This document shows, in pieces, positions 30,277-51,718 of a DNA stretch of 54,328 bases. The stretch is from Pirellula sp. (GTDB taxonomy: Bacteria > Planctomycetota > Planctomycetia > Pirellulales > PNKZ01): NCBI GenBank assembly GCA_013822735.1, contig PNKZ01000030.1:1-54328 (forward strand). Reading direction: 5' to 3'. Below the pieces are notes generated by a model. It did not search any database, had not been told where the DNA came from, and saw only the letters and a list, made by a program, of their open reading frames with translations. The translations under genes were made by a program, and so were the position numbers. The stretch's first letter is position 1. Every line of letters starts with the position of its first letter.

Positions 30277-30300
30277 TTTGCTTACCGCTCGAGAACTGCC

Positions 30301-31212
30301 ATGCTCGCTCGCTATCTCATCGCACCGACCGTCGCCGCACTCGCGACGTTTGCTACTGCAGCGGAATTGAAGACGTCTGACAGTCCGCCTGGGGCGGTTG
30401 CCGGCGGCGTCCGCTTGACGCATTGCCTCGTGTCGCTCATCGACGATATCGAAGTCCCCGCCGAGAAGCCGGGCGTATTGACGTCGCTCGCCGCGCGCGA
30501 AGGCGCCTACCTCGAAGCGCAGGCGCCGATCGCCTCGATCGACGAAGAGCAAGCGGCACTACAACACGAGACCGCAAAGGCCGAAGCCGATGCCGCCCAA
30601 GCCAAGGCCGAAAACCCGCTTGAGATCGAATACGCCGTGGCTACGCATCGCACGGCCGAGGCCGAGTACAAAATCTCACTCAACGCCAATCTCAAGCAAC
30701 CGAACTCCGTCTCAGCAGTCGAACTCGAACGCTTGCGTCTGGCAATGGAACAGGCGCGCATTAAGATCGGCGTCACCGAATTCGAACGCGGACTCAAAGG
30801 GATCGAAGCCCGCGGGTTCGACGCCAAATCGCGCCTTACGGCGGCCGAAGTACGTCAACGGCACATCCTCGCACCGCTCGCCGGTGAGATCGTCGAAGTC
30901 TTCTATCGCCCCGGCGAATGGGTCGAGCCGGGCAAACCGATCGTCCGCTTGGTGCGCCTCGACCGGCTCCGCGTCGAAGGCTTTGTAAAGTTCTCCGAGC
31001 ACGCGCCAGGCTCGCTCCATGGACAGGCCGTTCGTGCCACGGTCGAAACGGCCGGCGGCAAACTTGAAACCTTTCCCGGACGCGTCACGTTCGTCAGCCC
31101 GCTGGTGCAGCCGGGAGGCGAATATCGCATCTGGGCCGAAGTCGACAACCGCCGCGTCGGCGAGCACTGGCTCCTTCGCCCCGGCCTCGAAGCAGAACTA
31201 ACCATCGAATAG
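30301..31212 (+). CDS. periplasmic adaptor subunit (HlyD/RND MFP type)
   Basis: 303 residues. A signal peptide (LARYLIAPTVAALATFATAA) is followed by a first lipoyl-like half (EVPAEKPGVLTSLAAREGAYLEAQAPIASI, in two pieces), a helical hairpin of about 110 residues rich in Ala, Glu and Lys, a second half (ILAPLAGEIVEVFYRPGEWVEPGKPI, likewise) and a beta barrel ending EYRIWAEVDNRRVGEHWLLRPG. It is shorter than classical adaptors and has no membrane helix besides the signal. It starts 24 nt after the GAF-HlyD gene. It probably forms the periplasmic part of the same channel. Confidence 0.87.
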   Translation: MLARYLIAPTVAALATFATAAELKTSDSPPGAVAGGVRLTHCLVSLIDDIEVPAEKPGVLTSLAAREGAYLEAQAPIASIDEEQAALQHETAKAEADAAQAKAENPLEIEYAVATHRTAEAEYKISLNANLKQPNSVSAVELERLRLAMEQARIKIGVTEFERGLKGIEARGFDAKSRLTAAEVRQRHILAPLAGEIVEVFYRPGEWVEPGKPIVRLVRLDRLRVEGFVKFSEHAPGSLHGQAVRATVETAGGKLETFPGRVTFVSPLVQPGGEYRIWAEVDNRRVGEHWLLRPGLEAELTIE

Positions 31213-31235
31213 CAGACGTTACGCCACCTCCTTTT

Positions 31236-31273
31236 GTCTCTAGCCTCCAGCTTCTAGCCTCTAGCTTCTTCTT
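31236..31273. repeat. short CTCTAGCCTC direct repeats
   Basis: Three degenerate copies of CTCTAGCCTC(C)AGCTT lie in the 64-nt gap before the M50 gene. I have seen this kind of simple CTAGCCTCTAGCC repeat in planctomycete intergenic DNA. It may place the M50 start without a Shine-Dalgarno site. Confidence 0.5.
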
Positions 31274-31276
31274 CCG

Positions 31277-33487: not shown

Positions 33488-33496
33488 ACGGCGCGC

Positions 33497-35440
33497 ATGT
33501 TCACGGCTTTCCGCAAACTACGCGACCGTCGCCGGCTGAAATGCGTCGAGCAAATCAACGCCGCCGAGCCTGCGCTCCAAGCGCTCTCCGACGTTGACCT
33601 CCGCAGCGCAAGCTTGGCGCTGCGCTATCGGGCTCGTTCCGGGGAATCGCCGAAGCGACTCACGCCCGACGCCTTCGCGCTAGTTCGCGAAGCCGCGCGG
33701 CGTACCATCGGCATGCGCCACTTCGATGTGCAGCTTCTCGGCGGTCTGTCGCTCGTCGAGCGCGGCTTAGCCGAAATGCAAACCGGCGAAGGCAAAACGC
33801 TTACGGCCACGCTGCCGATGTACTTGTTCGGGCTCTACGGCCGCGGCGCACATCTGGCGACGGTAAACGATTACCTAGCCCGGCGCGATTTGGATTTGAT
33901 GCGTCCCGTCTACGCAGCGCTCGGCCTCACGTCCGGCGTCGTCGAAAGCGGTACCGAGCCTGCAGAACGACGCAAAGCATACGCCGCCGACATTACCTAC
34001 GGCACGGCGAAAGAGTTTGGCTTCGATTACCTCCGCGACCGCCTATTACTCCGCGGCCAAGACGACGCCGGCAGCGATCTTGTCGGCCGGCTCACCGGCG
34101 AGCCCGACCCACGGCGCGGCGACAAGCCGTTGCAACGGCCGCCGTTTTTCATGCTCGTCGACGAAGCCGACAGCGTCTTGATCGACGATGCCGGAACTCC
34201 GCTTGTCATCGCCGGCGCGGCAGGGGAGGTGCCCGCGGCAATCTCGGCCCGTTATCTGTTCGCGGCATCGCAAGCCGGCATGTTTCGCGAGGAGGAACAC
34301 TACACGCTCAAGCGGCAAGAACAACGCGTGGAGTTGACGTTCGCCGGACGCGAGCTCGTCCGCAGTCTGCCGCATCCTCCGGTGCTCAGCGGCGTCGGAC
34401 TCGTGACGCTCTACGAAGATTGCGAACGGGCCATCCTGGTCGAACGGCTCTACACGCGCGATCGCAACTACGTGGTGCGTCCGAGCGAACAAAAGCACGA
34501 GTCGTCAATCTGCATCGTCGACGAGTTCACCGGTCGCATCGCCGAAGGGCGCAAATGGCGCTCCGGCCTGCATCAAGCCATCGAAGCCAAAGAGCGAATG
34601 CCGATCACCGACGACGGCGGTCAAGCGGCCCGCATCACGGTGCAAGAATTCTTCCTCCGCTACCGCCACCTGGCCGGCATGAGCGGCACGGCCCAAGGCT
34701 CGGCCGGCGAACTCAGGCGAATTTACAAACTACGCACACGACAGATTCCCACGAATCGTCCGCCGATCCGTAAGCAACTGCCGACCATGATTCTCGGCAC
34801 TGCGCAAGCCCGCTGGGACGCGGTCGTGGCCGAGGTGCGTGAGATGCACGCCGTCGGGCGGCCGGTGCTCATCGGCACCCGCAGCATCGATCAATCAGAG
34901 CGGCTCTCGGAGTTACTGCGCGCCGCCGACCTCGGACATGAAGTGCTGAACGCCCATCACGAAGCGCGGGAAGCGGAAATCGTCGCCCAAGCCGGCGAGC
35001 GGGGCCGTATCACCGTGGCCACAAACATGGCCGGCCGCGGAACCGATGTCCGCCTCGGGCCCGAGGTTCACGACCTCGGCGGGCTCCATGTCATCATTAC
35101 CGAAATGCACGAAGCGGCCCGTATCGATCGGCAACTCATCGGCCGCAGCGGGCGACAAGGAGACCCGGGCTCGTACCGCTTCGTGCTCTCACTCGAAGAC
35201 GATCTGCTCCAAGAGGCATTCGGCGCACGACGCGCTGAGAAGTGGAAACGGCTCGGTCTTGCCGCCGACCCCGCGGATGCCCAAGCATTCGCACGCTACC
35301 AGCGACTCTTTCGCAGAGCCCAGCGCAAGATCGAACGCCGTCGATTTCGTCGGCGCAAGCAATTGCTCGCCTATGAAAAGCATCGCCATCAATCGGCCTT
35401 GCCGTTGGGCCTCGATCCCCACTTAGACTTGCCGGGCTAA
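33497..35440 (+). CDS. accessory SecA-like translocation ATPase (short form)
   Basis: 647 residues, against about 850-950 for housekeeping SecA. The motor is complete: Walker A MQTGEGKT at 94-101, GTAKEFGFDYLRD, the Walker B block VDEADSVLIDDAGTPL at 221-236, a SecA-type preprotein cross-linking region, MSGTAQGSAGEL, and NBD2 with ITVATNMAGRGTDVRLG and IGRSGRQGDPGSYRF. The helical scaffold and wing are short, and the C-terminal zinc-binding tail is absent. It lies 9 nt after the M50/HlyD gene. A second SecA of this kind is usually dedicated to a special substrate, in this case possibly the giant protein. Confidence 0.9.
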   Translation: MFTAFRKLRDRRRLKCVEQINAAEPALQALSDVDLRSASLALRYRARSGESPKRLTPDAFALVREAARRTIGMRHFDVQLLGGLSLVERGLAEMQTGEGKTLTATLPMYLFGLYGRGAHLATVNDYLARRDLDLMRPVYAALGLTSGVVESGTEPAERRKAYAADITYGTAKEFGFDYLRDRLLLRGQDDAGSDLVGRLTGEPDPRRGDKPLQRPPFFMLVDEADSVLIDDAGTPLVIAGAAGEVPAAISARYLFAASQAGMFREEEHYTLKRQEQRVELTFAGRELVRSLPHPPVLSGVGLVTLYEDCERAILVERLYTRDRNYVVRPSEQKHESSICIVDEFTGRIAEGRKWRSGLHQAIEAKERMPITDDGGQAARITVQEFFLRYRHLAGMSGTAQGSAGELRRIYKLRTRQIPTNRPPIRKQLPTMILGTAQARWDAVVAEVREMHAVGRPVLIGTRSIDQSERLSELLRAADLGHEVLNAHHEAREAEIVAQAGERGRITVATNMAGRGTDVRLGPEVHDLGGLHVIITEMHEAARIDRQLIGRSGRQGDPGSYRFVLSLEDDLLQEAFGARRAEKWKRLGLAADPADAQAFARYQRLFRRAQRKIERRRFRRRKQLLAYEKHRHQSALPLGLDPHLDLPG

Positions 35441-38246: not shown

Positions 38247-38654
38247 ATGATTCGCTATCAGCTTGAGCCGCAACTCGGTGTCGACGATTTCATCGATGTG
38301 CTCATTCGCTCGACCTTGGCCGAGCGGCGCCCTGTGCACGAACGCTCGACCATCGAGACGATGCTGCGGAAGGCCGACATTCTCCTCACCGCGCGCGACG
38401 AAGCGCGGCTGATCGGCGTTTCGCGGGCCATCAGCGATTTCTCGTTCTGCACCTATCTTTCCGACTTGGCCGTCGACGAGTCGTATCAAGGGCGCGGGAT
38501 CGGACGCGAGCTCGTCCGCATGACGCATCTCGAAGCCGGTTTGAATACCGCGCTCATCTTGCTCGCCGCCCCCAAGGCGCAGACCTACTACCCGCACATC
38601 GGCATGACGAAGCACGACTCGGCTTGGGTCATCCCGCGGATACCTCACGTATAA
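38247..38654 (+). CDS. GNAT family N-acetyltransferase
   Basis: 135 residues. The acetyl-CoA-binding motif A is clear: LSDLAVDESYQGRGIGRELV. The short N-terminal domain and YPHIGM near the end are as in small bacterial GNAT proteins. The substrate is unknown. The gene stands alone, divergent from the Lys/Ala-rich gene, with a 237-nt gap before the carrier-protein cluster. Confidence 0.88.
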   Translation: MIRYQLEPQLGVDDFIDVLIRSTLAERRPVHERSTIETMLRKADILLTARDEARLIGVSRAISDFSFCTYLSDLAVDESYQGRGIGRELVRMTHLEAGLNTALILLAAPKAQTYYPHIGMTKHDSAWVIPRIPHV

Positions 38655-38891
38655 ACACGGGCGTTTTCGGCACGCACAAGCCCTACGATCGATACGCCCG
38701 CGCCAAACGGCGCACCGCGTTCAGACCGACCCTAACGGTTTCGTAAACTACGCAAACCCGCAGTTTTCGACGTAAGTTTCATCCAATCAGGCGTCATTAT
38801 CGCGCGCTTCTCACCAGGTCGTTGCCGTGGTGCTTGCGCGAGCGCTCGGGACGCGTTTCAACGCCAATATTCTCACCGGAAGACCCACCGC

Positions 38892-39158
38892 ATGACCCCT
38901 ACGAACTCGCCGGCCGTCGTCGACCTCGAATCCGTGAAGGACGTCGTCGCCATGCACATCGGCGTGCCGGTCGACGTGAGCACGCTCGATCCGCAGCGCG
39001 ATCTCTATTCGGCCGGCCTCACGTCGCTCGCCACCGTCGGTTTGATGCTCGCCTTGGAAGAGCGCTTCGATATCGAATTTCCCGAATCGATGTTGAGTCG
39101 CGGAACGTTCCGCACCATTGCTTCGATTTCGGAAGCGGTCGCCAAATTGGCCCGCTAG
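38892..39158 (+). CDS. stand-alone acyl carrier protein
   Basis: 88 residues. The phosphopantetheine attachment site is Ser45 in LYSAGLTSLATVGLMLALEE, on the typical helix-II boundary. An acidic four-helix bundle is expected. It starts the carrier-protein/aminoacyl cluster: 26 nt before the flavoprotein and followed by the ligase. A GGAAG site lies upstream. The housekeeping ACP would sit with fatty acid genes, so this one is a dedicated carrier, probably for an aminoacyl thioester. Confidence 0.9.
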   Translation: MTPTNSPAVVDLESVKDVVAMHIGVPVDVSTLDPQRDLYSAGLTSLATVGLMLALEERFDIEFPESMLSRGTFRTIASISEAVAKLAR

Positions 39159-39184
39159 TTCGCCTTTCTCCCCGAGCACGATAC

Positions 39185-40384
39185 ATGATCACGACGATTG
39201 TTCGCGACGCGCGCATCTCTGCGGCCGAGTTTGCCGATTTGCTCGCGCAGGCCCACGTCATCGGCGAAACGGCGCTGGCCCCGCACGCCGCGTCGGTCGA
39301 CGAGAACGCGCGCTTTCCCGCCGAGGCGTTCGCCGCCTTGCGCGAAGGGAAGTTTTTGAGCGCCTATGTCCCCGTGGAATACGGCGGCTTCGGGCTCAAC
39401 ATTATCGAAACGTCGAAGATTTGCGAAGCGCTCGGGCACTATTGCGGCTCGACCGCGATGATCTACGCAATGCACTGCATTCAAGTGGCGTGCGTCGTGC
39501 ATCATGCGCAAGAATCCGATTACTTCCGCCGCTACCTGCGTCAGCTGGTCGAAGAGCAACGGCTCATGGCCTCGGCGACGACCGAAATCGGCACCGGCGG
39601 CGACTTGCTCTCGAGCATCTGCGCCGTGGACGTCGACGGCGATACGTTCACGCTCACGAAGAAGGCCCCGGTGATCTCGTACGGCGAATATGCCGACGAC
39701 ATCCTCGTGACGGCACGCCGCTCGCCGGAGTCGCCGGCCACGGATCAGGTGCACGTCATGGTTCGCCGCGGCGAGTACCAGGCCGAGCCGCTCTCGACCT
39801 GGGACACCATGGGATTCCGCGGCACGTGCAGTTCCGGCTTCACGCTCACCGCTCAAGGCAACGTCGAACAAATCCTGCCGACGTCGTTTGGCGAGATCCT
39901 CGCCGAAACGATGCACCCGTATTCGCACATCGTCTGGGGCGCGCTCTGGTCGGGCATCGCGGCCGACGCCGTGAATCGCTCGCGAGCCTTTGTACGTGTC
40001 GAAGCGCGGAAGACGCCCGGCGAAACGCCCCTGTCGGCCGTTCGTTTGGCCGAGGTCGACTTGATGCTGCAAGAAATGCGGCACAACGTCTACTCGCTGG
40101 CCCGCGAGTATCACGAGAAGCTCAATTCGACTTGCGATGCGGCCTTTGAAGGCTTCGGCTTTCCGATTCGTACGAACAATCTGAAATTGTCGTGCTCGCA
40201 GAAGATCGTCGAAATCGTCGGCAAGGCCCTACTGATCAACGGCATCTCGGGCTACCGCAACGATTCGAAGTTCAGCTTGGCCCGACACCTGCGCGACTCT
40301 TACGGGGCCGCGCTGATGGTGAACAACGATCGCATCACAAAACTCAACGCCACGATGTTGCTCGCGCACCGAGAAGGACACTAA
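39185..40384 (+). CDS. acyl-CoA dehydrogenase-like flavoprotein
   Basis: 399 residues from the ATG at 39185. Recognisable features: AYVPVEYGGFGL, then SATTEIGTGGD (the FAD/substrate block, usually ...TEPxxGSD), the central beta domain ending STWDTMGFRGTCSSGF, and the C-terminal helix bundle. I cannot place the general-base Glu with confidence, so dehydrogenation is not proved. In amino acid:carrier-protein ligase loci this protein is the usual neighbour and is thought to act on the aminoacyl- or acyl-carrier protein, as prolyl-carrier dehydrogenases do in pyrrole formation. It ends 5 nt before the ligase start. Confidence 0.85.
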   Translation: MITTIVRDARISAAEFADLLAQAHVIGETALAPHAASVDENARFPAEAFAALREGKFLSAYVPVEYGGFGLNIIETSKICEALGHYCGSTAMIYAMHCIQVACVVHHAQESDYFRRYLRQLVEEQRLMASATTEIGTGGDLLSSICAVDVDGDTFTLTKKAPVISYGEYADDILVTARRSPESPATDQVHVMVRRGEYQAEPLSTWDTMGFRGTCSSGFTLTAQGNVEQILPTSFGEILAETMHPYSHIVWGALWSGIAADAVNRSRAFVRVEARKTPGETPLSAVRLAEVDLMLQEMRHNVYSLAREYHEKLNSTCDAAFEGFGFPIRTNNLKLSCSQKIVEIVGKALLINGISGYRNDSKFSLARHLRDSYGAALMVNNDRITKLNATMLLAHREGH

Positions 40385-40389
40385 CGCTT

Positions 40390-41319
40390 ATGTCGTGTAT
40401 CGCCACCGAATCGCTGACGGAAACGTACCGCCACTGCCGCGACCAGCTCGTCGAGGCCGGAATTCTCATTTCGATGGAAGTCGACGGGCTTTACGGCTTC
40501 AGCGGCGCGTTTGAAGACGTGATCGAACGCTTCGAGCGTTACGTCACCGTGCGCGGCAGCCATTTGCAGGCCGAGGTCATGCGCTTTCCGGCGATTATGA
40601 ATCGGGCACACTATCTGCAGATGACGCACATCGACAATTTCCCGGACTTGCTCGGCTCGGTGCATTCGTTTACCGGCAACGAGCGCGATCACCTGAAGAT
40701 GCTCGATAAGAAAAAGAAGGGGGAAGACTGGACCGAGCACCTGACGCCAACCCAGATCATGATGACCCCCGCGGCCTGCTACCCGCTTTATCCGACGGTC
40801 AAAGGCACGCTGCCCGAGCAAGGTCGAACCGTCGACCTGCGTTCGTTCGTGTTTCGTCATGAGCCGTCGCTCGATCCGGCCCGAATGCAGATTTTCCGGC
40901 AGCGTGAATTCGTTCGCCTCGGCACGCCCGAGCAGGCGCTCGAACATCGCGAATACTGGCTCAAGCTCGGCGCCGAGATCCTGAACCATGTCGGCCTGGA
41001 AGCCGAAGCCGTGGTCGCCAACGATCCGTTCTTCGGCCGGGGCGGCAAGGTGATGGCCGCGGCGCAGAAGGAGCAAGTGCTCAAATTCGAGCTCGTGCAT
41101 GAAGTGGCGACGGCCGAGAAGCCGACGGCGATCACCTCCTGCAACTATCACCAAAACCACTTCGGCCACACGTTCGGCATTCACACGCCCGACGGCAAAG
41201 ACGCCCACACTTCGTGCATCGGCTTCGGCCTGGAGCGCATCGCTTTGGCGCTCTTCATGAAGCACGGCTTCGATCCGGACCTCTGGCCTCACGACGTCAA
41301 GAACACGCTCGGTCTCTAA
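40390..41319 (+). CDS. amino acid:[carrier protein] ligase (SerRS-like)
   Basis: 309 residues. A class II aminoacyl-tRNA synthetase core without any tRNA-binding domain. Cys130 (TPAACYPLYP), Glu173 (RQREFVRLG) and Cys276 (HTSCIGFGLERIALALF) correspond to the zinc ligands of atypical SerRS-like enzymes that load Gly or Ala onto a carrier protein. Motif 3 is the GFGLERIALALF block. The gene overlaps the next by 1 nt (TAATG). The product would charge the ACP two genes upstream. The best-studied members are from Bradyrhizobium, Methylibium and Agrobacterium. The amino acid used here is not predictable. Confidence 0.92.
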   Translation: MSCIATESLTETYRHCRDQLVEAGILISMEVDGLYGFSGAFEDVIERFERYVTVRGSHLQAEVMRFPAIMNRAHYLQMTHIDNFPDLLGSVHSFTGNERDHLKMLDKKKKGEDWTEHLTPTQIMMTPAACYPLYPTVKGTLPEQGRTVDLRSFVFRHEPSLDPARMQIFRQREFVRLGTPEQALEHREYWLKLGAEILNHVGLEAEAVVANDPFFGRGGKVMAAAQKEQVLKFELVHEVATAEKPTAITSCNYHQNHFGHTFGIHTPDGKDAHTSCIGFGLERIALALFMKHGFDPDLWPHDVKNTLGL

Positions 41320-42290
41320 TGCTCGGCGAACTCACCCTCAATCCGACGGACTATCAACGGCATCGGCTCCACACGCAGGAGCGGAGTTGGGCCGAGACGA
41401 ACTGCTACGTCGATGTTTGGATCGAACTCCTCCACGCTTGGGGCTTCGAGCCGATCGCGGCGCTGCCGTTCACCACGACCATCGACTTCGAAGGGGACCA
41501 GTGGACCTTCTTCAAGTTCCCGCATGCCGATCTCGAAGAACTCTTCGGGCTCGACGTGCAGGAGCTGGCCATCTGGCGTCCGCTCGAAACACATGTCGAG
41601 GAACAACTTCGCCTCGGCCGGCCGATGCTGGTCGAGCTCGATTCGTACTACCTGCCCGATACGGCGGGCACGGCCTATCGCACGGCGCATGTGAAGTCGA
41701 CGGTCGCGACGATGGAGATCGACGTCGCCGCTCGCCGGCTCGGCTATTTCCACGGCCAGGGCTACTACGAACTCGCCGACGACGACTTCCTGAACGTTTT
41801 CCGCATGACCGGAAAGTTCTCGCCGGACGTGCTGCCGCCGTACGCGGAGATCGTCAAACGGCGCAATCCTGCACCGCCCATGGGCGACCAACTCGTCGCC
41901 GCTTCGCTCGACGTGTTCCGGCGCCAGCTGCGTCGCTTGCCGACGGAGAACCCCTTCGACAAGTTCCAGTCGCGCTTCGCCGCCGACCTGCAATGGCTCA
42001 CCGGCGCGTCGCTCGAAATGTTCCATCACTATTCGTTTGCCACGCTGCGACAGTTCGGCGCGAGCTACGAATGCGCGGCGACGTACCTGAAGTGGCTCGA
42101 CGAGAACCATGTGAACGGGCTGGAAACTGCTGCGGCGGGCTTCACGGCACTTTCGACCGGCGCGAAGACGCTGCAGTTTCAGCTAGCTCGCGCCATGGCG
42201 CGGAAGAAGCCGATGGACCTCACGCCGCTCGACGACTTGGCAGGCGTGTGGCAAACGACCGTCGACGACTTGTCGACGCGGCTACTCTAA
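41319..42290 (+). CDS. DUF1839 family protein
   Basis: 323 residues. Starts MLGELTLNPTDYQRHRLHTQ and contains WAETNCYVDVWIELLHAWG and AHVKSTVATMEID. DUF1839 is almost always next to the amino acid:carrier-protein ligase. Its biochemistry is unknown, though an acceptor-binding or transfer role has been suggested from context. It shares the TAATG with the ligase, so it is translationally coupled. No membrane segment or signal peptide is visible. Confidence 0.88.
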   Translation: MLGELTLNPTDYQRHRLHTQERSWAETNCYVDVWIELLHAWGFEPIAALPFTTTIDFEGDQWTFFKFPHADLEELFGLDVQELAIWRPLETHVEEQLRLGRPMLVELDSYYLPDTAGTAYRTAHVKSTVATMEIDVAARRLGYFHGQGYYELADDDFLNVFRMTGKFSPDVLPPYAEIVKRRNPAPPMGDQLVAASLDVFRRQLRRLPTENPFDKFQSRFAADLQWLTGASLEMFHHYSFATLRQFGASYECAATYLKWLDENHVNGLETAAAGFTALSTGAKTLQFQLARAMARKKPMDLTPLDDLAGVWQTTVDDLSTRLL

Positions 42291-42318
42291 CTTTCCGCCG
42301 GTGGAGGCGTCGCATTCC

Positions 42319-44850
42319 ATGAGCACAATTCCTTGCGCTGCTGCCGATCCGGTTGAAGCGCTCACGTTGCGCGCATGGTCGCTGCTCGGGCGATTGCCGG
42401 GGCTGACGACGCCTCCGGCCTTCACGCGCGATGAGCATTGCCGCTGGTTGCCGGCCGTGGTGCCCGGGACCGTTGCGCAAGCTCTCGATGTTGCGGGGGA
42501 GTGGGATTTCGCGCGGCCGACCGATATCGACGCCCACGAATGGTGGTATCGCACGACGTTCGCAGCGCCCGGCGCCGTCAACGATCGGCCCTGCCGCATT
42601 TGCTTCGCCGGCCTCGCGACTTCGGCCGAAGTCTGGCTCAACGGTCAGAAGATCCTGAGCGCGGACAACATGTTTCGTACGTACTCGATCGACGTCGGCT
42701 CGCTGCTAGAAGATGAAAACGAACTGCTGCTGTGCTTCCGCTCGCTCACGGAGTTGCTGAAGCAAAAGCGCCCGCGGCCGCGATGGAAGACGAACCTCGT
42801 GCGCAACCAGCAACTGCGCTGGCATCGCACCTCGCTCGTCGGACGCATCCCCGGCTGGGCTCCTTGCGCCCCGGCGATCGGTCCTTGGCGCGACGTGCGA
42901 TTGGAAACCGCGCAAGTACTGCTGGATGACCTGCGCATTAAGCCGACGCTCGCCGGCACGACCGGCGTCGTCACAATCTCCGCCAAGGCGTATGGCCGGG
43001 CCGCGCCGAATCGTGCGATGCTCCAGGTCGACACGCACGAAGCGGAGCTTTCGATCGTTCCTGTCGACGAAGGCTGGACGATTACCGGCGAGCTACGCAT
43101 TCCGAACGTACCGCTTTGGTCGCCGCACACGCACGGCACTCCGCACTTGCACGACTGCTCGATTCTGCTTGAGTTCGACGGAGAACCGATCGCTCACCCG
43201 CAAGCGCCGCTCGGCTTTCGCAAGGTCGAAGTTCGCACCGACGACCGCTTTGCCGTTTACATCAACGGCGAGCAGGTCTTCTGTCGCGGCGGTTGCTGGA
43301 CCGTCGACGATCTCCTCGCGCGCGGCGGCGACGAAGCGACGCTACGCCGCGATCTGACGTTGGCCCGCGACGCCGGGACAAACATGCTGCGCGTCGGCGG
43401 CACCATGCAATACGAGAGCGAGACGTTCTACCGGCTCTGCGACGAGCTCGGCCTGCTGGTCTGGCAGGATTTCATGTTCGCGAACATGGACTACCCAGTC
43501 GACGACGCCGGCTTCCGCGAGAACATCCGCGCCGAAGCGACCGAGCAGCTCGCACGGCTGGCGCGTCATCCGTCGGTCGTCATCTATTGCGGCAACAGCG
43601 AAATCGAACAGCAAGCGGCGATGCTCGGCATGCCGCGCGAGCGTTGGACCAACGACTGGTTCGCCCGCGAACTGCCGGAACTTTGCAGGGCGCTTCATCC
43701 AGGCACGGCCTATGTCCCGTCGACGCCGACCGGCGGCGTACTGCCGTTTCACACGCACACCGGCATCACGCACTATTACGGCGTCGGCGCATACTTGCGC
43801 CCGACGACTGATCTGCGCCGTGCCGACGTGAAGTTCACGCCGGAATGCCTCGGCTTTGCAAACTTGCCGGAACCGGAAACGATCTACGCCGTCACGGGGG
43901 GCGCGCATCCGGTGATGCACGATCCTGCCTGGAAGCAGCGCGTTCCGCGCGACGGCGGAGCAGGGTGGGACTTCGAAGACGTTCGCGATCGCTATCTGCG
44001 CGAAACGTTCGGAGTCGATCCGTCGCAGCTCCGCTCGTTCGATATGCCGCGCTACCTCGAGCTGAGTCGCGCCGTGACGGGCGAGATGATGGCCGCAGCG
44101 TTTGCCGAGTGGCGCAGCACGCATTCGCAGTGCGGCGGGGCGCTCACCTGGTTCTACAAAGATCTTTGGCCGGGCGCCGGCTGGGGCGTCGTCGATTCCA
44201 CCGGCTTGCCGAAGGCCGCGTACTACTACCTGAAACGCTCTTGGCAAACACGGCAACTCACGCTCACCGACGAAGGGCTGAACGGTCTCGACCTGCATCT
44301 CACGAACGAGACCGACCAACCGTGCGACGGCTTGGTCGAACTGCAAATGCTGAAGTCGCCCGGCACCGTCGTCGCGCACGCAGTCAGTCCGGTGCGCGTG
44401 AACGGCCGTTCGCGGCAACGCCTGAGCGGCGACGCGATTCTGGGAATCTTTACCGATTCGGCCTACGCCTATCGTTTCGGCCCGCCGCAGCACGACGTGG
44501 TCATGGCCCGGTGGTGCGATGCCGACGGCGCCGTCCTCGGCGAGGCCTGGCATTTCATCCGTCGGCTTGCGTCCGGTCGCATGTCGCCCCACACCGTAAA
44601 CGCCTCGGCGGAACTCGCCGCCGACAACACTTATCGCGTTACACTTCGCGCCGAAGGGTTCCTGGACACCGTTCGTCTGCACGCCGACGGCTACCTGCCG
44701 GACGACAATTACTTCCACCTCGCGCCGGGTCGCGCCAAGGTGGTGACGTTCCTTCCGCGAAACAACTCGGCCGGCGAATTCCGCCCGACGCTCGAAGCGC
44801 TGAACCTCGACACCGAACTCACGGTCCCCGTAACCGCCGCCGCTCACTAG
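42319..44850 (+). CDS. glycoside hydrolase family 2 protein, beta-mannosidase-like
   Basis: 843 residues from ATG 42319 (GGAGG lies 11 nt upstream; a GTG at 42301 is possible). The jelly-roll sugar-binding domain (WDFARPTDIDAHEWWYRTTF, then GLATSAEVWLNGQKIL) and Ig-like domain precede a TIM barrel. The acid/base Glu428 lies in YCGNSEIEQ and the probable nucleophile Glu509 in FTPECLGFANLP, the beta-mannosidase pattern. No signal peptide is seen, so it is cytoplasmic or only released by lysis. It follows DUF1839 by 28 nt, tying sugar trimming to the carrier-protein locus. Specificity is not certain. Confidence 0.85.
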   Translation: MSTIPCAAADPVEALTLRAWSLLGRLPGLTTPPAFTRDEHCRWLPAVVPGTVAQALDVAGEWDFARPTDIDAHEWWYRTTFAAPGAVNDRPCRICFAGLATSAEVWLNGQKILSADNMFRTYSIDVGSLLEDENELLLCFRSLTELLKQKRPRPRWKTNLVRNQQLRWHRTSLVGRIPGWAPCAPAIGPWRDVRLETAQVLLDDLRIKPTLAGTTGVVTISAKAYGRAAPNRAMLQVDTHEAELSIVPVDEGWTITGELRIPNVPLWSPHTHGTPHLHDCSILLEFDGEPIAHPQAPLGFRKVEVRTDDRFAVYINGEQVFCRGGCWTVDDLLARGGDEATLRRDLTLARDAGTNMLRVGGTMQYESETFYRLCDELGLLVWQDFMFANMDYPVDDAGFRENIRAEATEQLARLARHPSVVIYCGNSEIEQQAAMLGMPRERWTNDWFARELPELCRALHPGTAYVPSTPTGGVLPFHTHTGITHYYGVGAYLRPTTDLRRADVKFTPECLGFANLPEPETIYAVTGGAHPVMHDPAWKQRVPRDGGAGWDFEDVRDRYLRETFGVDPSQLRSFDMPRYLELSRAVTGEMMAAAFAEWRSTHSQCGGALTWFYKDLWPGAGWGVVDSTGLPKAAYYYLKRSWQTRQLTLTDEGLNGLDLHLTNETDQPCDGLVELQMLKSPGTVVAHAVSPVRVNGRSRQRLSGDAILGIFTDSAYAYRFGPPQHDVVMARWCDADGAVLGEAWHFIRRLASGRMSPHTVNASAELAADNTYRVTLRAEGFLDTVRLHADGYLPDDNYFHLAPGRAKVVTFLPRNNSAGEFRPTLEALNLDTELTVPVTAAAH

Positions 44851-44861
44851 GACTCCGCCGC

Positions 44862-46751
44862 ATGTCGCTGACGATCACCGAACCGACGGACCATTTGCTT
44901 ACTTCGGCCGCCGCGCGCGCGGCCGGATCGCAAAACGTCGACGTGGCGCGCTCGGCGTTTTATCTGACTAGCCGCAACGAACCGCTGCTGGCCTGGCTGC
45001 ACACTTCGAAGCAAGCAAGCTGCGTCGATCACGGCGTCGTCATCTGCGCGCCGGTCGGGTTCGAACAGCTGCACGCCAACCGAAGCTTGCGGCATCTGGC
45101 CGACGCCGTGGCGCGGCAGGGCATTCCGGCGCTGCGCTTCGATTGGCACGGCACGGGGGACTCCGCAGGCAGCGATGCCGACCCGGACCGCCGCGCTACG
45201 TGGCATCAGAACGTGCGCGACGCGGTCGCTTGGATGCGCTCCAAGCTCGGCTGCCGGCGGATCAGCATCGTCGGCCTGCGCATGGGAGCGATGCTCGCCG
45301 TCGAAGCGCTCGGGCCCGACGAGTGCGACAATCTCGTACTTTGGGCGCCGGTGACCTGCGGCAAGTCGTACATGCGGCAGATGCAGACGATCGAACAGAT
45401 GACCGAACTCCGCCCGCGCCCCGCGCACGCCGCCGCCGGCGATGTCGAAGCGGCGGGCTTCCTGGTCACCGAAGAAACAGGCGAGCAGTTTAAGAAGCTC
45501 AACTTGCTGCAGAAGCAACTAAGCTGCTTGCAAGCGCTCGTCGTCGGCCCCGCCGACAAAAAGCTCGCCGAACGCTTTGCGCAGTTCGATGTTCCGGTGA
45601 CGACGCTGTCGCCACCCGGCTATGCCGAGATGATGGCGGAACCGCACTTCAGCAAGGTGCCGGAACAAACGATTCGCGACATTGCACAATGGCTCGCGGA
45701 ACGCATTCGCGTGCCGAGCGCCGGGACGCTGGAGATCGATTTCGCGAGGATCGGCCCGACGCAGGCCTTGGTTTCGTACGAAAACGCGGCCGAGCCGGAT
45801 GTGATTCGCACGCTGCACGAGCGCGTGTTGCGCATCGGACCGGACCAACTCTTCGGCGTATTGGTCGAACCGACCGGCAACGTCGGCGATCTGCCGGCCG
45901 TCATCGTGCTGAATGCCGGCGCGGCCAACCATGTCGGTCCCGGCCGGATCTATGTCGAACTCACGCGTCGATTGGCAAATGCCGGTTTCCGCGCGTTGCG
46001 GCTCGACGTCTGCGGCCTGGGGGACAGCGTGTGCAGCAATCCGGCGCAAGAGAACGATCCGTACCCAAGCACGGCGTTTCGCGACGTGCAACTCGCCATT
46101 CGGGAGCTTCGCGAACGGTTCGGCGTCACGCGTTGCGTGCTCGTGGGGCTCTGCTCGGGTGCGTATGCCGCGTTTCAGTCGGCCGCGCAACTTTCCGACC
46201 CGACGCTCGTGGAAAGCGTACTGATCAATCCGCTGACGTTTCATTGGGAAGCCGGCATGCCGTTCGACGCCTCCGGCGCCGAAAAGCTCATGCAGGACCA
46301 TTGCCGCATGGCGCGGGCCACGAACGGCCGGAAACTGTGGAAGTTTCTCCGCGGCCAAACCGACATCGGCTACGTGGAGGCCGTCAAGCTGCTGGGACGT
46401 CGCCTAGGTAATCTCGTGCAGAAGCGCGACGTAGCGTCGACGGCCCGTTCGCAGTTTCCGCCCGAAGTTGTCGGGCATCCGGCCGACAACAATCTCGCGG
46501 CCGATCTGACGCGGGTGGCGACGGCCAAGCGCAAGCTCGCCCTGTTTCTCGCCGAGAACGATCCGGGCCAGGCCGTGATGGCGTATCACGCGCCGCAAGA
46601 GACCAAGCAATGGCTGCGCAGCGGCGATTTGCATCTGGAAACGATTCCCCAAGGGGATCACACGTTCTCGCGCCGCGCCCCGCGGGCCGAACTGTTTCGA
46701 GCCCTGACTCAATACTTGCTCCTGCGCTATGCAGTCGGCATAACTCCCTAA
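44862..46751 (+). CDS. two-domain alpha/beta hydrolase fusion with atypical nucleophile positions
   Basis: 629 residues, two alpha/beta-hydrolase domains in tandem. Domain 1 (about 50-290) has FDWHGTGDSAGSD and VGLRMGAMLA. The nucleophile elbow normally G-x-S-x-G reads GLRMG, with Arg140 at the Ser place. Domain 2 (about 340-615) has LDVCGLGDSVCSN and VGLCSGAYAA, with Cys431 there, and DPGQ/GDHTF near the end. The pattern is close to exosortase-associated and surface-polysaccharide hydrolases. Domain 1 may be non-catalytic and domain 2 may act as a Cys hydrolase or thioesterase. It lies 11 nt after the GH2 gene and 12 nt before the glycosyltransferase. Confidence 0.85.
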   Translation: MSLTITEPTDHLLTSAAARAAGSQNVDVARSAFYLTSRNEPLLAWLHTSKQASCVDHGVVICAPVGFEQLHANRSLRHLADAVARQGIPALRFDWHGTGDSAGSDADPDRRATWHQNVRDAVAWMRSKLGCRRISIVGLRMGAMLAVEALGPDECDNLVLWAPVTCGKSYMRQMQTIEQMTELRPRPAHAAAGDVEAAGFLVTEETGEQFKKLNLLQKQLSCLQALVVGPADKKLAERFAQFDVPVTTLSPPGYAEMMAEPHFSKVPEQTIRDIAQWLAERIRVPSAGTLEIDFARIGPTQALVSYENAAEPDVIRTLHERVLRIGPDQLFGVLVEPTGNVGDLPAVIVLNAGAANHVGPGRIYVELTRRLANAGFRALRLDVCGLGDSVCSNPAQENDPYPSTAFRDVQLAIRELRERFGVTRCVLVGLCSGAYAAFQSAAQLSDPTLVESVLINPLTFHWEAGMPFDASGAEKLMQDHCRMARATNGRKLWKFLRGQTDIGYVEAVKLLGRRLGNLVQKRDVASTARSQFPPEVVGHPADNNLAADLTRVATAKRKLALFLAENDPGQAVMAYHAPQETKQWLRSGDLHLETIPQGDHTFSRRAPRAELFRALTQYLLLRYAVGITP

Positions 46752-46763
46752 CGAGATTTCCAC

Positions 46764-47726
46764 GTGAAGCTGCTCGTCGTCATCGTCAACTACCGCACGC
46801 CGGCCCTTACGATCGACTGCCTAGAATCGCTGGCAGCCGAAGGAGGCTTGCCCGCGGATTCGCGCGTCGTCGTCACCGATAACTTGTCGGGAGGCGATTC
46901 CGTCGAGCGGATCGGCGCGGCGATCGTCGAGCGCGGCTGGCAGGGGTGGGCCACGCTGATGCCGCTGCCGCGCAACGGCGGATTCGCGTACGGCAACAAC
47001 GAAGCAATTCGTCCGGCGCTTGCCGGAGCGGACCAGCCGGAATTGGTGCTGCTGCTCAATTCGGATACGCGCGTCTATCCGGGCGCTCTGCAAACGCTGG
47101 TCGACTTTTTAGAACGGAACCCGGCCGCCGCGATGGTCGGCAGCCGACTGGAAGACCCCGACGGCACGGCGCAATTCTCGACGTTTCGCTTTCCATCGCT
47201 CTGGAGCGAGCTCGACGAAGCGCTCCGTATCGGGCCGGTGCATCGTCTGCTTTCGCGCTTCGTCACGCTCCTGCCGACTCCGACCACCGCGGCGCAGGTC
47301 GATTGGGTCGCCGGGGCGAGCCTTTGCATTCGGCGCGAGGTGTTCGACACGATCGGCCTGCTCGACGACGGCTACTTCCTTTACTACGAGGAAACCGACT
47401 TCTGCCTGCGCGCGGCGCGGGCCGGCTTTACCTGCTGGTATGAGCCGAAAAGCCGGGTGATGCACCTCATCGGCCAATCGACGGGGGTGACGGTGCGCGA
47501 ACAGGCGCTGCCGCGCCGGCCCAAGTATTGGTTCGATTCACGACGCCGGTACTTTCTACGCAACCACGGCCGGATGTTTACGGCGCTGCTCGACGCCGTG
47601 TGGTCGCTCAGCTATCCGCTCGGCCGGCTGCAATTGGGCCTGCGCCGCAAACGGGTCTTCGATCCGCGCCGGCTCTGGCTCGACTATGTGCGCAACAGCG
47701 TCTTTGTGCGCGGCTTTAGCAGCTAG
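46764..47726 (+). CDS. family 2 glycosyltransferase, rhamnosyltransferase-like
   Basis: 320 residues, GTG start. GT-A fold: VIVNYRTPALTIDCLESL, NGGFAYGNNEAI, the LLLNSDTRVYPGAL metal-binding region (DTR) and the YYEETDFCLRAARAGFTC acceptor block (ED/E) typical of rhamnosyl- or fucosyltransferases of the WbbL type. No membrane anchor is evident. It ends the carrier-protein/sugar operon and suggests that the pathway product is, or is attached to, a cell-surface glycan. Confidence 0.9.
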   Translation: MKLLVVIVNYRTPALTIDCLESLAAEGGLPADSRVVVTDNLSGGDSVERIGAAIVERGWQGWATLMPLPRNGGFAYGNNEAIRPALAGADQPELVLLLNSDTRVYPGALQTLVDFLERNPAAAMVGSRLEDPDGTAQFSTFRFPSLWSELDEALRIGPVHRLLSRFVTLLPTPTTAAQVDWVAGASLCIRREVFDTIGLLDDGYFLYYEETDFCLRAARAGFTCWYEPKSRVMHLIGQSTGVTVREQALPRRPKYWFDSRRRYFLRNHGRMFTALLDAVWSLSYPLGRLQLGLRRKRVFDPRRLWLDYVRNSVFVRGFSS

Positions 47727-47786
47727 AGCCTGATTCGGATGCGATTCGGATGCCGCGTGGGCCTCACTTCGTTCGACCCATCCTAC
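47727..47786. repeat. dispersed intergenic repeat (WVERSE-type)
   Basis: In the gap between the convergent glycosyltransferase and kinase genes. On the - strand it reads GTAGGATGGGTCGAACGAAG and then TGAGGCCCACG..., translated VGWVERSEAHAAS. I know this as a recurrent repeat peptide in unrelated genomes. GATTCGGATGC is also duplicated inside it. Confidence 0.7.
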
Positions 47787-47794
47787 TGACTGAT

Positions 47795-50700
47795 TTACTT
47801 CGCGGTCGGCGTGCCGTTCCATTCGACCGTGCACTGCGGCAGAGCCTGCTTCAAAGCGGCCACGGTTTCGGCGGTGACGGGCGTGCTGCGACAATAGACG
47901 TACTTCAGGTAGCGGCAGGAGTGCAATGGCGACAGATCGACGACGTCGGTATTGCCGATATAGAGTCTTTCAATCGGCGAGCCGCGCAGCGGAGACAAGT
48001 CCTTTAATTTCACATTACTGCAACTCAGCGCCACGAGCTTCATCTCGGCCAGCGGCGACAAGTCGCTAAAGTTCGCCTTTCCCGTTGATCCGCGGCACCA
48101 CAACGTCGTGAGCACGCCGAAGGCGCGGAGCGGGGAAATATCCGTGATCTGATCGACGTTGAGATCGATTTCCGTAACGACGCCGTCGACGATCGTCGGC
48201 GGTTTGTTGCCGCTTAATCCGGAGATTTTGCCGTCGAATTCGGGATTGAACACCTGCAACCGTTTCGCGACCTCTTCGATTTGCCTCTCCGCCGGCAGCG
48301 CGCCAACATCCCGCACCCACTGTCTTAGCGCGTCGTCCGACTGCGCGGCCCCGCCCAGCGTATCCCACTCGACGAGTAAATAGTGCGTTCCAAACTCGGG
48401 GCGCACGTCGTCCCAGGCCTTGTCCCCTTCCCACGTGAGGACGTTGCCGGAGCCGTCGGGTTGCCTGCCGATCCAGGTCGCTAAATCCAACGGCTCGCCG
48501 GTTAACCAAGTCCACACTTCGCCGACACGTTGCGCTCCTAGCGCCAAGCGATGACTCGCAGGGTCGATGTCGCCGACGCTCGGTACGGGGCGCTTTCGCC
48601 AGATGTTTTCGTTCACCCAGTTGATTTCCGCTTGGGAGGTGAGCGTCGCGAGATGCCCTCCCATTTGTTCGGCGATCGTTCGAGCCTCTCTCCAAGGGAG
48701 CGGATCGGCGACTAACAGATAACGATGCCCCGCAAACGAAAGGGCCTCCGGGGGAATTTGCGTACTACTGAACTCGGCAGCTGCGGTCAGCTTCGGGTCG
48801 ATCCAGACGGCGTAGGCGAAATCGTAGGCTCCGTTGCAAAACACTTCCAAACGCAATTGCTGCACGCCGCGCACATCGACGCTGCAATCGAGCCCCACGT
48901 CGGGCAGTGCTTGCGCAGGCGATTCCCAAAGAAGCTTGCCGTCGCCATAAACGCGAAACACGAGGGGCGTCTGTGGTTTGGCCACCATACCGACCGTGGC
49001 TGTGAACGTTTCGCACGCACCGCCGAGATGGTACTCGACCTGCGCGAGGCCGGTCTCGTTGTGCGGATGTGTGAAGAGCGAATGTTCGGGCTTGCCGCCG
49101 TGCCATTTGAGCTCGGTCCCGCCCGTATACATGCCGTGCTTACTGACAAAGCGATCTCCTCGGAAGGAGAGTTCTTGAAGGTCGTCGAGGTAGACGGACG
49201 CGGCCGGCTCGCCGGTGATCGGGTGCAAGCGGGGAAAAGGCGCCACGAGTTTCGGCTTCGACACGGCTTGAGATTTCGGCACGCGGCGGCTGACCCAGAG
49301 ATCGAGACCGCCGACGCCGCCGGCGCGATTGGCGGCGAAGTAGGCCGTGCGCGCGTCGGGCGCGAGCCAGAGATATTCCGTAGAAAAGGGATGCGCGGGC
49401 AACGGGAGCGCGGTCTTGCCGCCCCGTTCGTTCTGGTAAACAAAGTGCCAATCGGAATTGCGTCGAAACACGAGCGTCGTGTTGTCGCCGAGCAGTTGTG
49501 CGCTTGCCTCATACACGCCCGTGTTGACGGTCGGCCCGTAGTTCACGGCCGGCCCAAATGGTTCGGCAATGCTCGCGCGGCGACTGATCCAAATGTCGTT
49601 TTGGTTCGTCGGCAAATGCGTATGAAAGAGGAGCGATAAGCCGTCGGAGGAAAGTCGCGGGTGACGCGGCATGCCGGGGCCGTTTACCTGCGGCGGCAAT
49701 ACGGTCTTGTTCCAAGGCGCATCGAGCGTATCGCGCCGAGCGAGCGCCAACACTTCGGAGTTGCCTTCTTTTACAAGGTAGGAAATCGTGAGGCCGTCGC
49801 CGGAAAGCCACGCTTCCTTCACCGAGTGTCCCTTGACCGGCGCAGTGAAGGAAACATCCGTCGACGCGCGCGAAGCTTCCGTCCTACCGCCGCTGGAGCG
49901 GTCGTAGTAAATGCGACGTTGATCGTTCGTGAGCGAGGGAGACTTCTCATCGCCGGGGCCGTTGATGGAGGGCCCGAGATTTTCCGGCTCGCTCCAGACG
50001 TAGTCGGACGAATCGAGCAGCTGGGAGATCGAGATCGGTGCGCCGTCCGGCGCTGCGGGCTCCGAGTTCGACGCCGATGCGACGAGTCCGACGGCGGTAA
50101 GGGGTTTCGTAGCGGGCGGCGCGACGGGCTCAGCTGTTTGCGCCACCACTGCGACGGAGCGGCTTGCTGCATCAGCGGATTCAGCGACGGCTTCCCCCTG
50201 ATCGCGCCGCAGACCGATGAAAAGGCCTGCAGCGACGACCGCCGCGCCCAGAACGCCGACGGCGAAAAGCTTCACCGGCGGCCGCTTCTTTTGCGCGAGT
50301 GCGCTCTGCCGCGCATCGCGGCTCGCAGGAACCGGCCCTTTGAGCACTTCATTCTTGGGATCGGTTTCCTCTTCCGGCTTGGCGAGCGCCGTCGTCGCAT
50401 CGACCGGGACCTTCGTCTTCGAGCCGGAGAGCTTGGAAAGCGGCCCCGGCCCCTTCGACGACGAGCCCGACTCGGCGACCGTTTGCGAAAGCTTCGGCTG
50501 GGCGGCCATCGCTTGCATGAACGATGCGAGCTCCGCGCTCTGCAGCTTGCTGCTGCCGATGCTCGATCCGCCCCCGCCGCTCGAGGAGCCGCCGCTGAAC
50601 GAGTCGCCGAACGGCTCGAGCGCCGCGAGCACCTCGTCCATCGATTGGTATCGGTCTTGCGGCCGCTTGGCGATCATCTTGTGAAACACTTGCTCCAGCG

Positions 50701-51610
50701 GCCAGGCCACGTCGTCGCGCTCTTTCACGAGCGAGGGGAGCGGCGCATCGCGGTGTTTCATCAGCCGCGAAATCATCGTGTCGCCGTCGTACAGCTTCTT
50801 GCCCGAAAGCAGATACCAAAGCGTGCAGCCGAGCGAGTAGATGTCGGCGCGGCCGTCGGCGCTTTTCGTATCGGCCGCCTGCTCGGGGCTCATGTAATCG
50901 ACCGTCCCCATCACTTGCTCGGTCGCCGTGAGGCCGTCGCCCGAGTCTTCGATGCGGGCCAGGCCCATGTCGAGAATCTTGACGACCCCCTTCTTATCGA
51001 GCAGGAGATTCGCCGGCTTGATGTCGCGATGCGTTACTCCCGCGCCATGTGCAAAGGCGAGCCCGCGCGCGGCTTGCATCACGTAACCCACGGCGCGTTC
51101 CACGCCGAGCGGGCCGTTTTTCTTGACGAGTTCCGACAGGTCGCCGCCGTCGACGAACTGCATCACGAGATACTTGACGCTGCCGGCCTCGCCGGAGTCG
51201 TACGCGGTGACGATGTTCGGATGTTCGAGCCTGGCCGCGGCGATCACTTCGCGCTGGAAGCGCTTCACGGCGGCCGCGTCTTTCATCGCGGCGCTCGACA
51301 TCACCTTGAGCGCCACCACGCGCTTCATCCGCTGATGCTGGGCCTTGTAGACCTGCCCCATGCCGCCGGCGCCGATCTCGGCGACGATCACATAGTCGCC
51401 CATGATCAGCCGCGCGCCGCGGCCCGCGAGCAGTTCCTGAGCTTGAAACGCCGTGAGTTTGCCGGCGGCGACGAGCGCCTTCGCGAACCCTTCGCCCTCT
51501 TTCGGGCGATTTTCCGGCGCGAGCGCGGTCCAAAAGGCTTTGGCGTCCGCCGCGGTGAACAGCCCGGAGGCGACGAGCGCTTTGCCGAATTGTTCGATAG
51601 AAACCGCCAT
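47795..51610 (-). CDS. Ser/Thr protein kinase with TolB-like propeller, NPCBM, C-type lectin and leucine-rich repeats
   Basis: 1,271 residues. Residues 1-70 form a short helical domain, followed by the kinase (70-335): glycine loop [11 protein letters not shown], Lys102, HRDIKPAN (Asp196), DMG at 214 in place of DFG, and MSPEQ. A Ser/Gly linker leads to one membrane segment (about 447-466). The extracytoplasmic part has a PD40/TolB-like beta-propeller (about 560-840), a probable NPCBM domain (about 860-980), a C-type lectin-like domain ([18 protein letters not shown] and EWDTLGG, about 990-1125) and leucine-rich repeats to the end. Such kinases are numerous in planctomycetes and sense external signals. 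The ATG at 51610 is the start. Confidence 0.88.
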
Positions 51611-51718
51611 GCATCCCCCACAGAAGTTGTAGAGGACATCATAGCCCGGCAACGGAGTTTACGCACACCATTTCGCCCCGTCGTCCGCCGCAAACCGGCC
51701 GGCGCGCGATCGGGCGCG

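Follow-up and report, generated by a model that had tools for sequence, protein, structure and literature searches.

Carrier-bound amino acids decorate surface glycans in the Dlt D-alanylation of teichoic acids, which relies on an adenylation enzyme and a membrane O-acyltransferase. Amino acid:[carrier protein] ligases, which have been in the literature since 2010, use Gly, Ala and Ser according to a 2022 review (PMC9437257), which calls it unknown what the loaded carrier does biologically. A note in proof of 2010 (PMC2922099) described a gene neighbourhood (e.g. that of Atu2574) comprising an acyl carrier protein (ACP), a redox enzyme, the ligase, a conserved uncharacterised protein, a glycosidase and liposaccharide genes, and predicted that the uncharacterised protein ligates the amino acid to a cell-surface sugar through the sugar's amino group, with a redox modification. 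Here we analysed a neighbourhood of this kind in Pirellula sp., located in a 54,328-nt stretch of contig PNKZ01000030.1 (the whole stretch is called the window below), which encodes an ACP, a flavoprotein with the acyl-CoA dehydrogenase (ACAD) fold, an amino acid:[carrier protein] ligase (LIG), a DUF1839 protein, a GH2 glycosidase, a fused double alpha/beta hydrolase (HYD) and a GT2 glycosyltransferase.

The types of gene and the predicted reaction are those of the 2010 neighbourhood; that note gave no fold or co-occurrence counts and named neither HYD nor a flippase, whereas the copy in the window is planctomycetal and adds GT2. The original prediction made from the DNA of this locus, namely that an aminoacyl-derived group is transferred to a glycan, is an independent rediscovery of the 2010 proposal. 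As in the Dlt system, a carrier-bound amino acid would decorate a surface glycan, but the enzymes here are a ligase resembling aminoacyl-tRNA synthetases (aaRS) and a cytosolic DUF1839 protein. Within the literature searched, the new elements are a DUF1839 fold of CcbD type, a strict three-way association between LIG, GH2 and HYD, a Cys-type HYD resembling exosortase-A hydrolases, and a flippase fusion. Full-text searches found no literature joining acyl-carrier-protein ligase, polysaccharide and amino acid, and none on exosortase A hydrolases that was relevant by its title.

The reading towards which we lean is that of a cytosolic pathway aminoacylating an amino sugar that is to become part of a surface polysaccharide. 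LIG would adenylate a small amino acid (glycine or alanine, according to the literature on its relatives) and load it onto the carrier protein, and the flavoprotein would oxidise the carrier-bound aminoacyl group, by monooxygenation or by Calpha-N or Calpha-Cbeta oxidation. The group would then move onto Cys29 of DUF1839 and from there to a sugar's amino group, in the way that CcbD handles proline and a thiooctose. The cytosolic GH2 and HYD would act on the same glycan or carrier, in trimming, proofreading or a second acyl transfer, and a Wzx-type flippase would finally export the decorated glycan. The most likely product would be an oxidised glycyl or alanyl group, amide-bound, on an amino sugar of a Wzx-exported polysaccharide.

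DUF1839 and the trio predicted to load the carrier

A structure of DUF1839 was predicted from a 58-sequence alignment (AlphaFold2 model, mean pLDDT 94). Its best PDB matches in Foldseek were AziU3/U2, CcbD and CtaG, with E values from 8e-9 to 5e-5 and TM-scores of 0.53-0.65. Comparison with VIA-align 2 gave Z 19.5 for CcbD (3.5 A over 285 of 323 residues), 18.4 for AziU3 and 17.7 for CtaG, while the next rows, helical proteins and papain-like peptidases, scored about 7. BtrH_N, a carrier:aminoglycoside acyltransferase family, came second among the Pfam families matched by the DUF1839 members: 19 of the 58 hit it weakly (E no higher than 1, at best 0.00099), compared with 4 for the family after it. 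A link between DUF1839 and CcbD by sequence only was also sought, and a profile search of PDB sequences found none.

Two DUF1839 columns, C29 and H145, were invariant (58/58), and T128 and H124 were kept in 57/58 sequences. C29, T128 and H145 fit the Cys-Thr/Ser-His site published in PMC10318531, with H124 also near, an assignment made from conserved columns. That paper calls the family papain-like and guesses at glycan processing at the cell wall; the CcbD-type match and the ACP neighbour fit a carrier-dependent transferase better than the acyl-CoA-dependent cell-wall glycan processor suggested there. CcbD itself is described, in PMC12945683, as a Cys-His-Glu ping-pong enzyme that transfers carrier-bound proline to the amino group of a thiooctose, an amino sugar.

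Given its modelled fold and the adjacent ACP, DUF1839 probably works like a CcbD-type carrier-dependent transferase. With the lincosamide condensing enzymes CcbD and LmbD it shares the fold over nearly its full length, the Cys nucleophile and a carrier-bound amino acid; it differs from them in sequence (about 13% identity), in its published site and in a carrier loaded by an aaRS-like ligase. As the amino-sugar acceptor known for CcbD is a prediction for DUF1839, and the order of its triad is tentative, we do not file DUF1839 as a member of the CcbD family. BtrH of the butirosin pathway is likewise a papain-like carrier-dependent acyltransferase, and CtaG (closthioamide) and AziU3/U2 have the same overall fold in the structure search, but the substrates of all these enzymes differ. 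The CtaG sites mutated according to PDB titles (C11, H128 and D144) also show an arrangement unlike that of DUF1839.

The three genes that precede DUF1839 would supply the loaded and oxidised carrier. LIG matched only positions 302-505 of the SerRS model, i.e. a SerRS-like catalytic core without the tRNA-binding part, and matched the Bll0957 structures 3mey and 4h2w at E about 1e-70. Residues C130, E173 and C276, which we take to be the zinc ligands of the amino-acid site, were invariant in 6 aligned sequences. The phosphopantetheine Ser of ACP sits in DLYSAGLTSL, and the relatives inspected by eye read G(L/M)(T/S)S. In the flavoprotein, H248, N381, D382 and R383 were invariant in 44/44 sequences, and the column of V379 held Val in 27 and Ile in 17. 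Aligned to solved ACADs, V379 falls on the residue after Tyr in IYTGT of 7p98 (Thr there), presumably the position of the Glu base in MCAD-type enzymes. The flavoprotein lacks the Glu base of a classical acyl-CoA dehydrogenase there, and therefore ordinary alpha,beta-desaturation is not assured; the isovaleryl-type base position seems, on our assumption, to be S247. Monooxygenation had been proposed for the flavoprotein step in PMC2922099.

The alignments behind the residue counts (window counted) used 58 of 77 candidate rows for DUF1839 (A3), 45 of 60 for HYD (A4), 47 of 67 for GH2 (A5) and 44 of 74 for the flavoprotein (A6). Rows were dropped when outside length limits or by hand, the latter being mostly close relatives, and the flavoprotein of locus L015 was left out of A6.

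Recurrence of the module and links to polysaccharide export

A ligase-alignment scan of the genome collection gave 493 relatives, of which the best 80 were kept, a sample biased to close relatives of the query, with gene starts guessed by script. The order ACP-flavoprotein-ligase-DUF1839-GH2, on one strand, was scored by script in 71/80 of these loci. Of the nine that failed, L037 did so by start choice alone, three (L026, L065 and L074) were cut at contig ends and five (L015, L041, L042, L046 and L050) were true exceptions. The gene order thus recurs in relatives as a neighbourhood far beyond chance, and the ACP/flavoprotein/ligase/DUF1839 unit originally described as conserved was borne out. 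By record title the module spreads over six phyla, and the same five genes in the same order were found on plasmid records of Azospirillum, Mycetohabitans, Rhizobium, Shinella, Burkholderia, Caballeronia, Cupriavidus and Phyllobacterium. In a midpoint-rooted tree of three concatenated proteins (50 rows, L008 having a long branch), the window grouped with L009 (a Schlesneria metagenome-assembled genome, MAG) and L010 with support 100/99, and verrucomicrobial copies nested within a larger planctomycete group. The GT2 of the window, used as a single-sequence profile, gave no best label above 25 bits in any other locus of 88 (L001 being a piece of the window), and was rejected as a conserved part of the cluster; it is a local addition that says nothing general on the module.

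Among the 80 loci HYD lay after GH2 in 38, convergent beside GH2 in 11, before ACP in 6 and otherwise linked in 7, and was absent from the locus DNA in 18. A re-search of 16 genomes, covering 15 of those 18 loci and L050 as a control (L017, L026 and L065 were left out), found HYD in 14/16, the two without it being the MAGs of L015 and L029. In L041, L042 and L046, whose LIG unit lacks GH2, this gene was found on another contig, directly beside HYD.

In L015, a planctomycete MAG, the ligase is accompanied by an ACAD, an FkbM methyltransferase and, adjoining the ligase at 8604-9968 (+), a Condensation-like protein (30.4 bits against a Pfam cut-off of 30.6) with a degenerate HHxxxDG region; DUF1839 is not in the locus DNA, nor GH2 or HYD in the genome, and perhaps a different transferase replaces DUF1839. 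Locus L050 (Thiomonas) has ACP-ligase-HYD, with no flavoprotein or DUF1839 in the 21 kb examined and no GH2 in the genome. On the Priestia aryabhattai plasmid p-LAD4 (L089, 8154-16713), holo-ACP synthase, ACP, flavoprotein and ligase are accompanied by genes for a DMT transporter, an ATP-grasp protein, a thioesterase, an alanine permease and an alanine racemase, with D-Ala-D-Ala ligase upstream; this cluster could make an alanine-derived antimetabolite with self-protection. On account of L015, L050 and Priestia, the ACP-flavoprotein-ligase trio looks like a portable amino-acid activating unit, with DUF1839 as its usual outlet in the loci seen.

Some further DUF1839 genes and modules lie on plasmids. 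A solitary DUF1839 gene with a ParB-like neighbour was seen on the conjugative plasmid p3 of Rhizobium sp. NZLR1 (L094, 11959-12945), where the 25 kb examined contain no ligase. In the Cupriavidus metallidurans CH34 megaplasmid (L092), a second DUF1839 frame, 17650-18897 (-), lies downstream of the five-gene module on the opposite strand. The module of Rhizobium gallicum plasmid pRGM101a (L096, 1491-16387), a plasmid that carries nifHDK, directly follows nif genes and an annotated exopolysaccharide production repressor gene.

The companionship of GH2 and HYD with the ligase was then counted across whole genomes, using GH2 and HYD profiles built from cluster members. In 151 genomes from the family of a Mesorhizobium genome, with scoring limited in each genome to the best 6 candidates of a first pass for GH2 and the best 8 for HYD, LIG exceeded its cut-off in 29 genomes (three more fell below it, at 79-163 bits), the GH2 subfamily exceeded 1000 bits in 29 (14 further genomes had weaker matches, the best 280 bits), and HYD was found in 29, with no other genome at E 1e-30. 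These were the identical 29 genomes, and none held one of the three alone at the thresholds used. In 22 of them HYD was about 6 kb or less from GH2; in the remaining 7 it was more distant, on a separate contig in six and 245 kb off on the same contig in one. Since it co-occurs even where unlinked, the association is more than operon inheritance.

A survey of 392 genomes of the planctomycete phylum (top 2 or 3 candidates scored) led to the same picture. DUF1839 was present in only two, the window's own genome and G118, and the same two held the GH2 subfamily above 1000 bits (1203 and 1002 bits; next 347) and the fused HYD above 450 bits (637 and 457 bits; next 250). The module is accordingly rare in the phylum (2/392). 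Twelve other planctomycete genomes had HYD matches, in ten of them as two adjacent matches, as for separate genes, and G324 had a fused HYD (244 bits) without DUF1839. The co-occurrence of sugar genes with carrier genes in related genomes, on which the original prediction depended, was therefore found for GH2 and HYD, in the same 29/151 and the same 2/392 genomes, and not for GT2.

Several relatives connect HYD to polysaccharide export. In Rhizobium sp. NLR16a, HYD is fused to a flippase homologue: the 1103-residue protein begins with a Polysacc_synt_3 part that has 13 hydrophobic segments and ends with HYD. Further homologues of the flippase-like part adjoin HYD in L071, L072, L076 and L077 (Pfam agrees for L072 and L076). 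Among 13 stretches around HYD genes that do not adjoin the ligase, in which the flippase was checked only among hand-picked neighbours, Polysacc_synt genes lie beside or a few genes from HYD in six (L100, L101, L103, L105, L108 and L109), some of which also have glycosyltransferase (GT) or GH5 genes; the six represent four lineages, two of them being the Pannonibacter and Shinella pairs. No flippase was met among the few neighbours tested in L099, L102, L104 and L107. A GT2 gene is directly beside HYD in L106, a PMT_2 glycosyltransferase occurs in L107 and a UDP-sugar dehydrogenase gene is near HYD in L102, while GH2 has an OpgC gene close by in L097 and L098.

The ligase, too, can be found in such surroundings. 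On a Tsukamurella plasmid it lies amid genes for an exopolysaccharide glycosylphosphotransferase, GTs, a flippase and a HYD homologue, with no flavoprotein, DUF1839 or GH2 in the 21 kb examined; this locus (L090, T. tyrosinosolvens plasmid 13, 6728-16897) has its own phosphopantetheinyl transferase, and its HYD homologue reads GVCSG. In 50 of the 80 genomes, chosen by hand, a PF02397 gene occurred within 10 kb of the ligase in 8, against 0.51 expected when contig ends are ignored (Poisson 7e-8), a P value that overstates independence since five of the eight genomes belong to one clade.

The operon of the window

The seven genes (Table 1) are intact frames on the + strand, separated by 26, 5, -1, 28, 11 and 12 nt, the -1 corresponding to a TAATG overlap at the LIG/DUF1839 junction. 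The gaps of 0-28 nt originally given were right. For consensus scans of 38600-48000 the expectation was 9.2 terminator-like and 1.5 promoter-like sites; a single terminator-like site turned up, inside the GH2 gene, and no promoter-like one. An alternative, earlier GTG start of GH2 at 42301 is possible according to the ORF lister. A simple hydropathy scan gave no transmembrane-like segment in any of the seven proteins and no signal peptide-like N-terminus was seen by eye, so that the whole set reads as cytosolic. Pfam and NCBIfam searches found no condensation or AMP-binding domain in the operon.

Table 1. Genes of the operon and further features of the window
Feature	Product	Position	Strand	Matches and remarks
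ACP	acyl/aminoacyl carrier protein, 88 aa	38892..39158	+	PF00550 E 2.3e-9; NF005480 84.6 bits, cut-off 72
Flavoprotein	acyl-CoA-dehydrogenase fold, 399 aa	39185..40384	+	PF02771 + PF00441 (Acyl-CoA_dh N and C domains)
LIG	amino acid:[carrier protein] ligase, 309 aa	40390..41319	+	NF005479 430.4 bits, cut-off 357
DUF1839	predicted CcbD/AziU3/CtaG-like Cys enzyme, 323 aa	41319..42290	+	PF08893 405.3 bits, gathering cut-off 22.5
GH2	beta-mannosidase type, 843 aa, cytosolic by sequence	42319..44850	+	Pfam GH2 domains
HYD	fused double alpha/beta hydrolase, 629 aa	44862..46751	+	two alpha/beta hydrolases in one chain; TIGR03101 + TIGR03100 below cut-off
GT2	glycosyltransferase, rhamnosyltransferase-like, 320 aa	46764..47726	+	PF13641 E 3.8e-11; TIGR01556 46 bits, below cut-off
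5' neighbour	GNAT	38247-38654		
3' neighbour	Ser/Thr kinase	47795-51652	-	opposite strand to the operon
Repeat protein	4544-aa protein	13684-27318	-	cadherin-like, Big_9 and Calx-beta repeats; C-terminal pretoxin HINT domain (PF07591)
Genes upstream of repeat protein	two HlyD-type genes, a further gene with an HlyD-like part, a 647-aa SecA-like gene	28285-35440	+	

That the genes following the carrier genes are sugar-active, as first described, is supported by family for GH2 and GT2 only and not for HYD. GH2 matched beta-mannosidase structures (E 3e-60); its E428 and E509, invariant in 47/47 sequences, align to Glu residues of these enzymes and are presumably the acid/base and the nucleophile. 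In the second half of HYD, the nucleophile motif is GLC431SG, with Cys431 in 45/45 sequences, Asp567 as Asp in 39 and Glu in 4 of 45, and His600 in 43/43 ungapped rows. The first half has no Ser or Cys nucleophile, Arg (36) or Gly (9) standing at that place (R140 in the window). An ordinary Ser esterase was rejected on these grounds, and the residues suggest that HYD may be of a Cys type with an acyltransferase or thioesterase role. Its AlphaFold2 model (pLDDT 86.8) matches the fold of lipases and feruloyl esterases. All 45 HYD members match both TIGR03101 and TIGR03100, the models of exosortase-A-associated hydrolases 2 and 1. Because both models are matched, and because adjacent separate matches occur in ten planctomycete genomes, HYD looks like a fusion of these tandem hydrolases. 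The window HYD resembles such a fused pair but stays under both curated cut-offs (110.6 and 113.3 bits for TIGR03100 and TIGR03101, against 168.45 and 202.75).

Elsewhere in the window, the 4544-aa repeat protein and the HlyD- and SecA-like genes (Table 1) are possibly a giant secreted protein with its export set.

Weighing the proposed pathway

The module might serve to make a small diffusible aminoacyl-amino-sugar metabolite, following the logic of lincosamides, butirosin or mycothiol, instead of decorating a polymer. CcbD, AziU3 and CtaG, the nearest folds to DUF1839, come from small-molecule pathways, the Priestia arrangement, with its transporter, ATP-grasp, thioesterase and alanine racemase genes around the trio, looks like small-molecule synthesis, and 42 of the 50 genomes lack a PF02397 gene at 10 kb or less from the ligase. 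Nevertheless, HYD, present with GH2 in all 29 positive rhizobial genomes, adjoins a Wzx-type flippase or forms one protein with it in several lineages and the Tsukamurella ligase lies inside an exopolysaccharide gene cluster, and we regard a diffusible product as unlikely.

We consider it rather improbable that HYD, and not DUF1839, is the glycan aminoacyl transferase, forming esters through its Cys, the tasks of DUF1839 and GH2 being substrate preparation or proofreading. The invariance of C431 would suit such a role, as would the GxCxG motif, which we take to be that of polyhydroxyalkanoate (PHA) synthases, and both the Thiomonas locus and Tsukamurella L090, where HYD is a few genes from ACP and ligase, keep HYD without the flavoprotein and DUF1839 in the DNA examined. 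Among the 50 structural matches listed for HYD, however, lipases and feruloyl esterases rank best and PHA synthases are absent, and DUF1839 has the better transferase match.

Two functions might also share one operon, an aminoacyl-carrier pathway and an unrelated sugar-degrading GH2/HYD pair. The match of GH2 to beta-mannosidases would agree with this, and so would the three genomes in which GH2 and HYD form a separate pair, although these same genomes, whose LIG unit lacks GH2, also count for the proposed pathway by retaining the pair on another contig. The presence of LIG, GH2 and HYD in the same 29/151 genomes, none alone and even with HYD unlinked, makes such a partnership of convenience very unlikely. 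Least probable of all is that the ligases serve a stand-alone nonribosomal peptide route, an idea first put forward for them in 2010 (account in PMC2922099). The carrier-bound amino acids and the Condensation-type protein beside the L015 ligase would suit it, but L015 is one of 80 loci and lacks DUF1839, GH2 and HYD as described above, and neither a condensation nor an AMP-binding domain was found in the operon of the window.

Besides the Priestia cluster and the 42 genomes without a nearby PF02397 gene, further points weigh against the cytosolic aminoacylation of an amino sugar bound for a surface polysaccharide. One would not expect a biosynthetic operon to include a cytosolic GH2, the acceptor and the product are predicted, and no polysaccharide locus adjoins the cluster in this window. 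HYD is missing from the L029 genome though the five-gene unit is present, seven of the 13 stretches with unlinked HYD show no flippase among the neighbours tested, and the PF02397 association leans on one clade. Finally, the triad published for DUF1839 is Cys-Thr/Ser-His (PMC10318531), and not the Cys-His-Asp/Glu of CcbD and CtaG.

The transfer of an aminoacyl group to a glycan, as originally predicted, thus finds partial support in the company of the carrier genes with GH2 and HYD and in the modelled CcbD-type fold of DUF1839, while GT2 is unconserved and an action of HYD on sugars is conjectural. A fuller version of the proposed pathway is more tentative, and we hold it only as a possibility on the doubtful side: that oxidised (for example N-hydroxy or dehydro) glycine or alanine is placed on amino sugars of polysaccharides exported by Wzx, through the combined action of a ligase resembling aaRS, a flavoprotein of non-classical type and a CcbD-like enzyme whose catalytic site is permuted, and, jointly with this, that GH2 and the Cys-type HYD are near-obligate partners of the carrier genes across the six phyla. 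A surface modification by such oxidised amino acids was not met in the literature searched.

If DUF1839 is indeed CcbD-like, the question of what the loaded carrier is for would reduce to one transfer assay and one glycan phenotype. The exosortase-A-type hydrolases would gain a testable substrate class, and rhizobia, azospirilla and planctomycetes would possess a carrier-protein route for aminoacylating their surface sugars.

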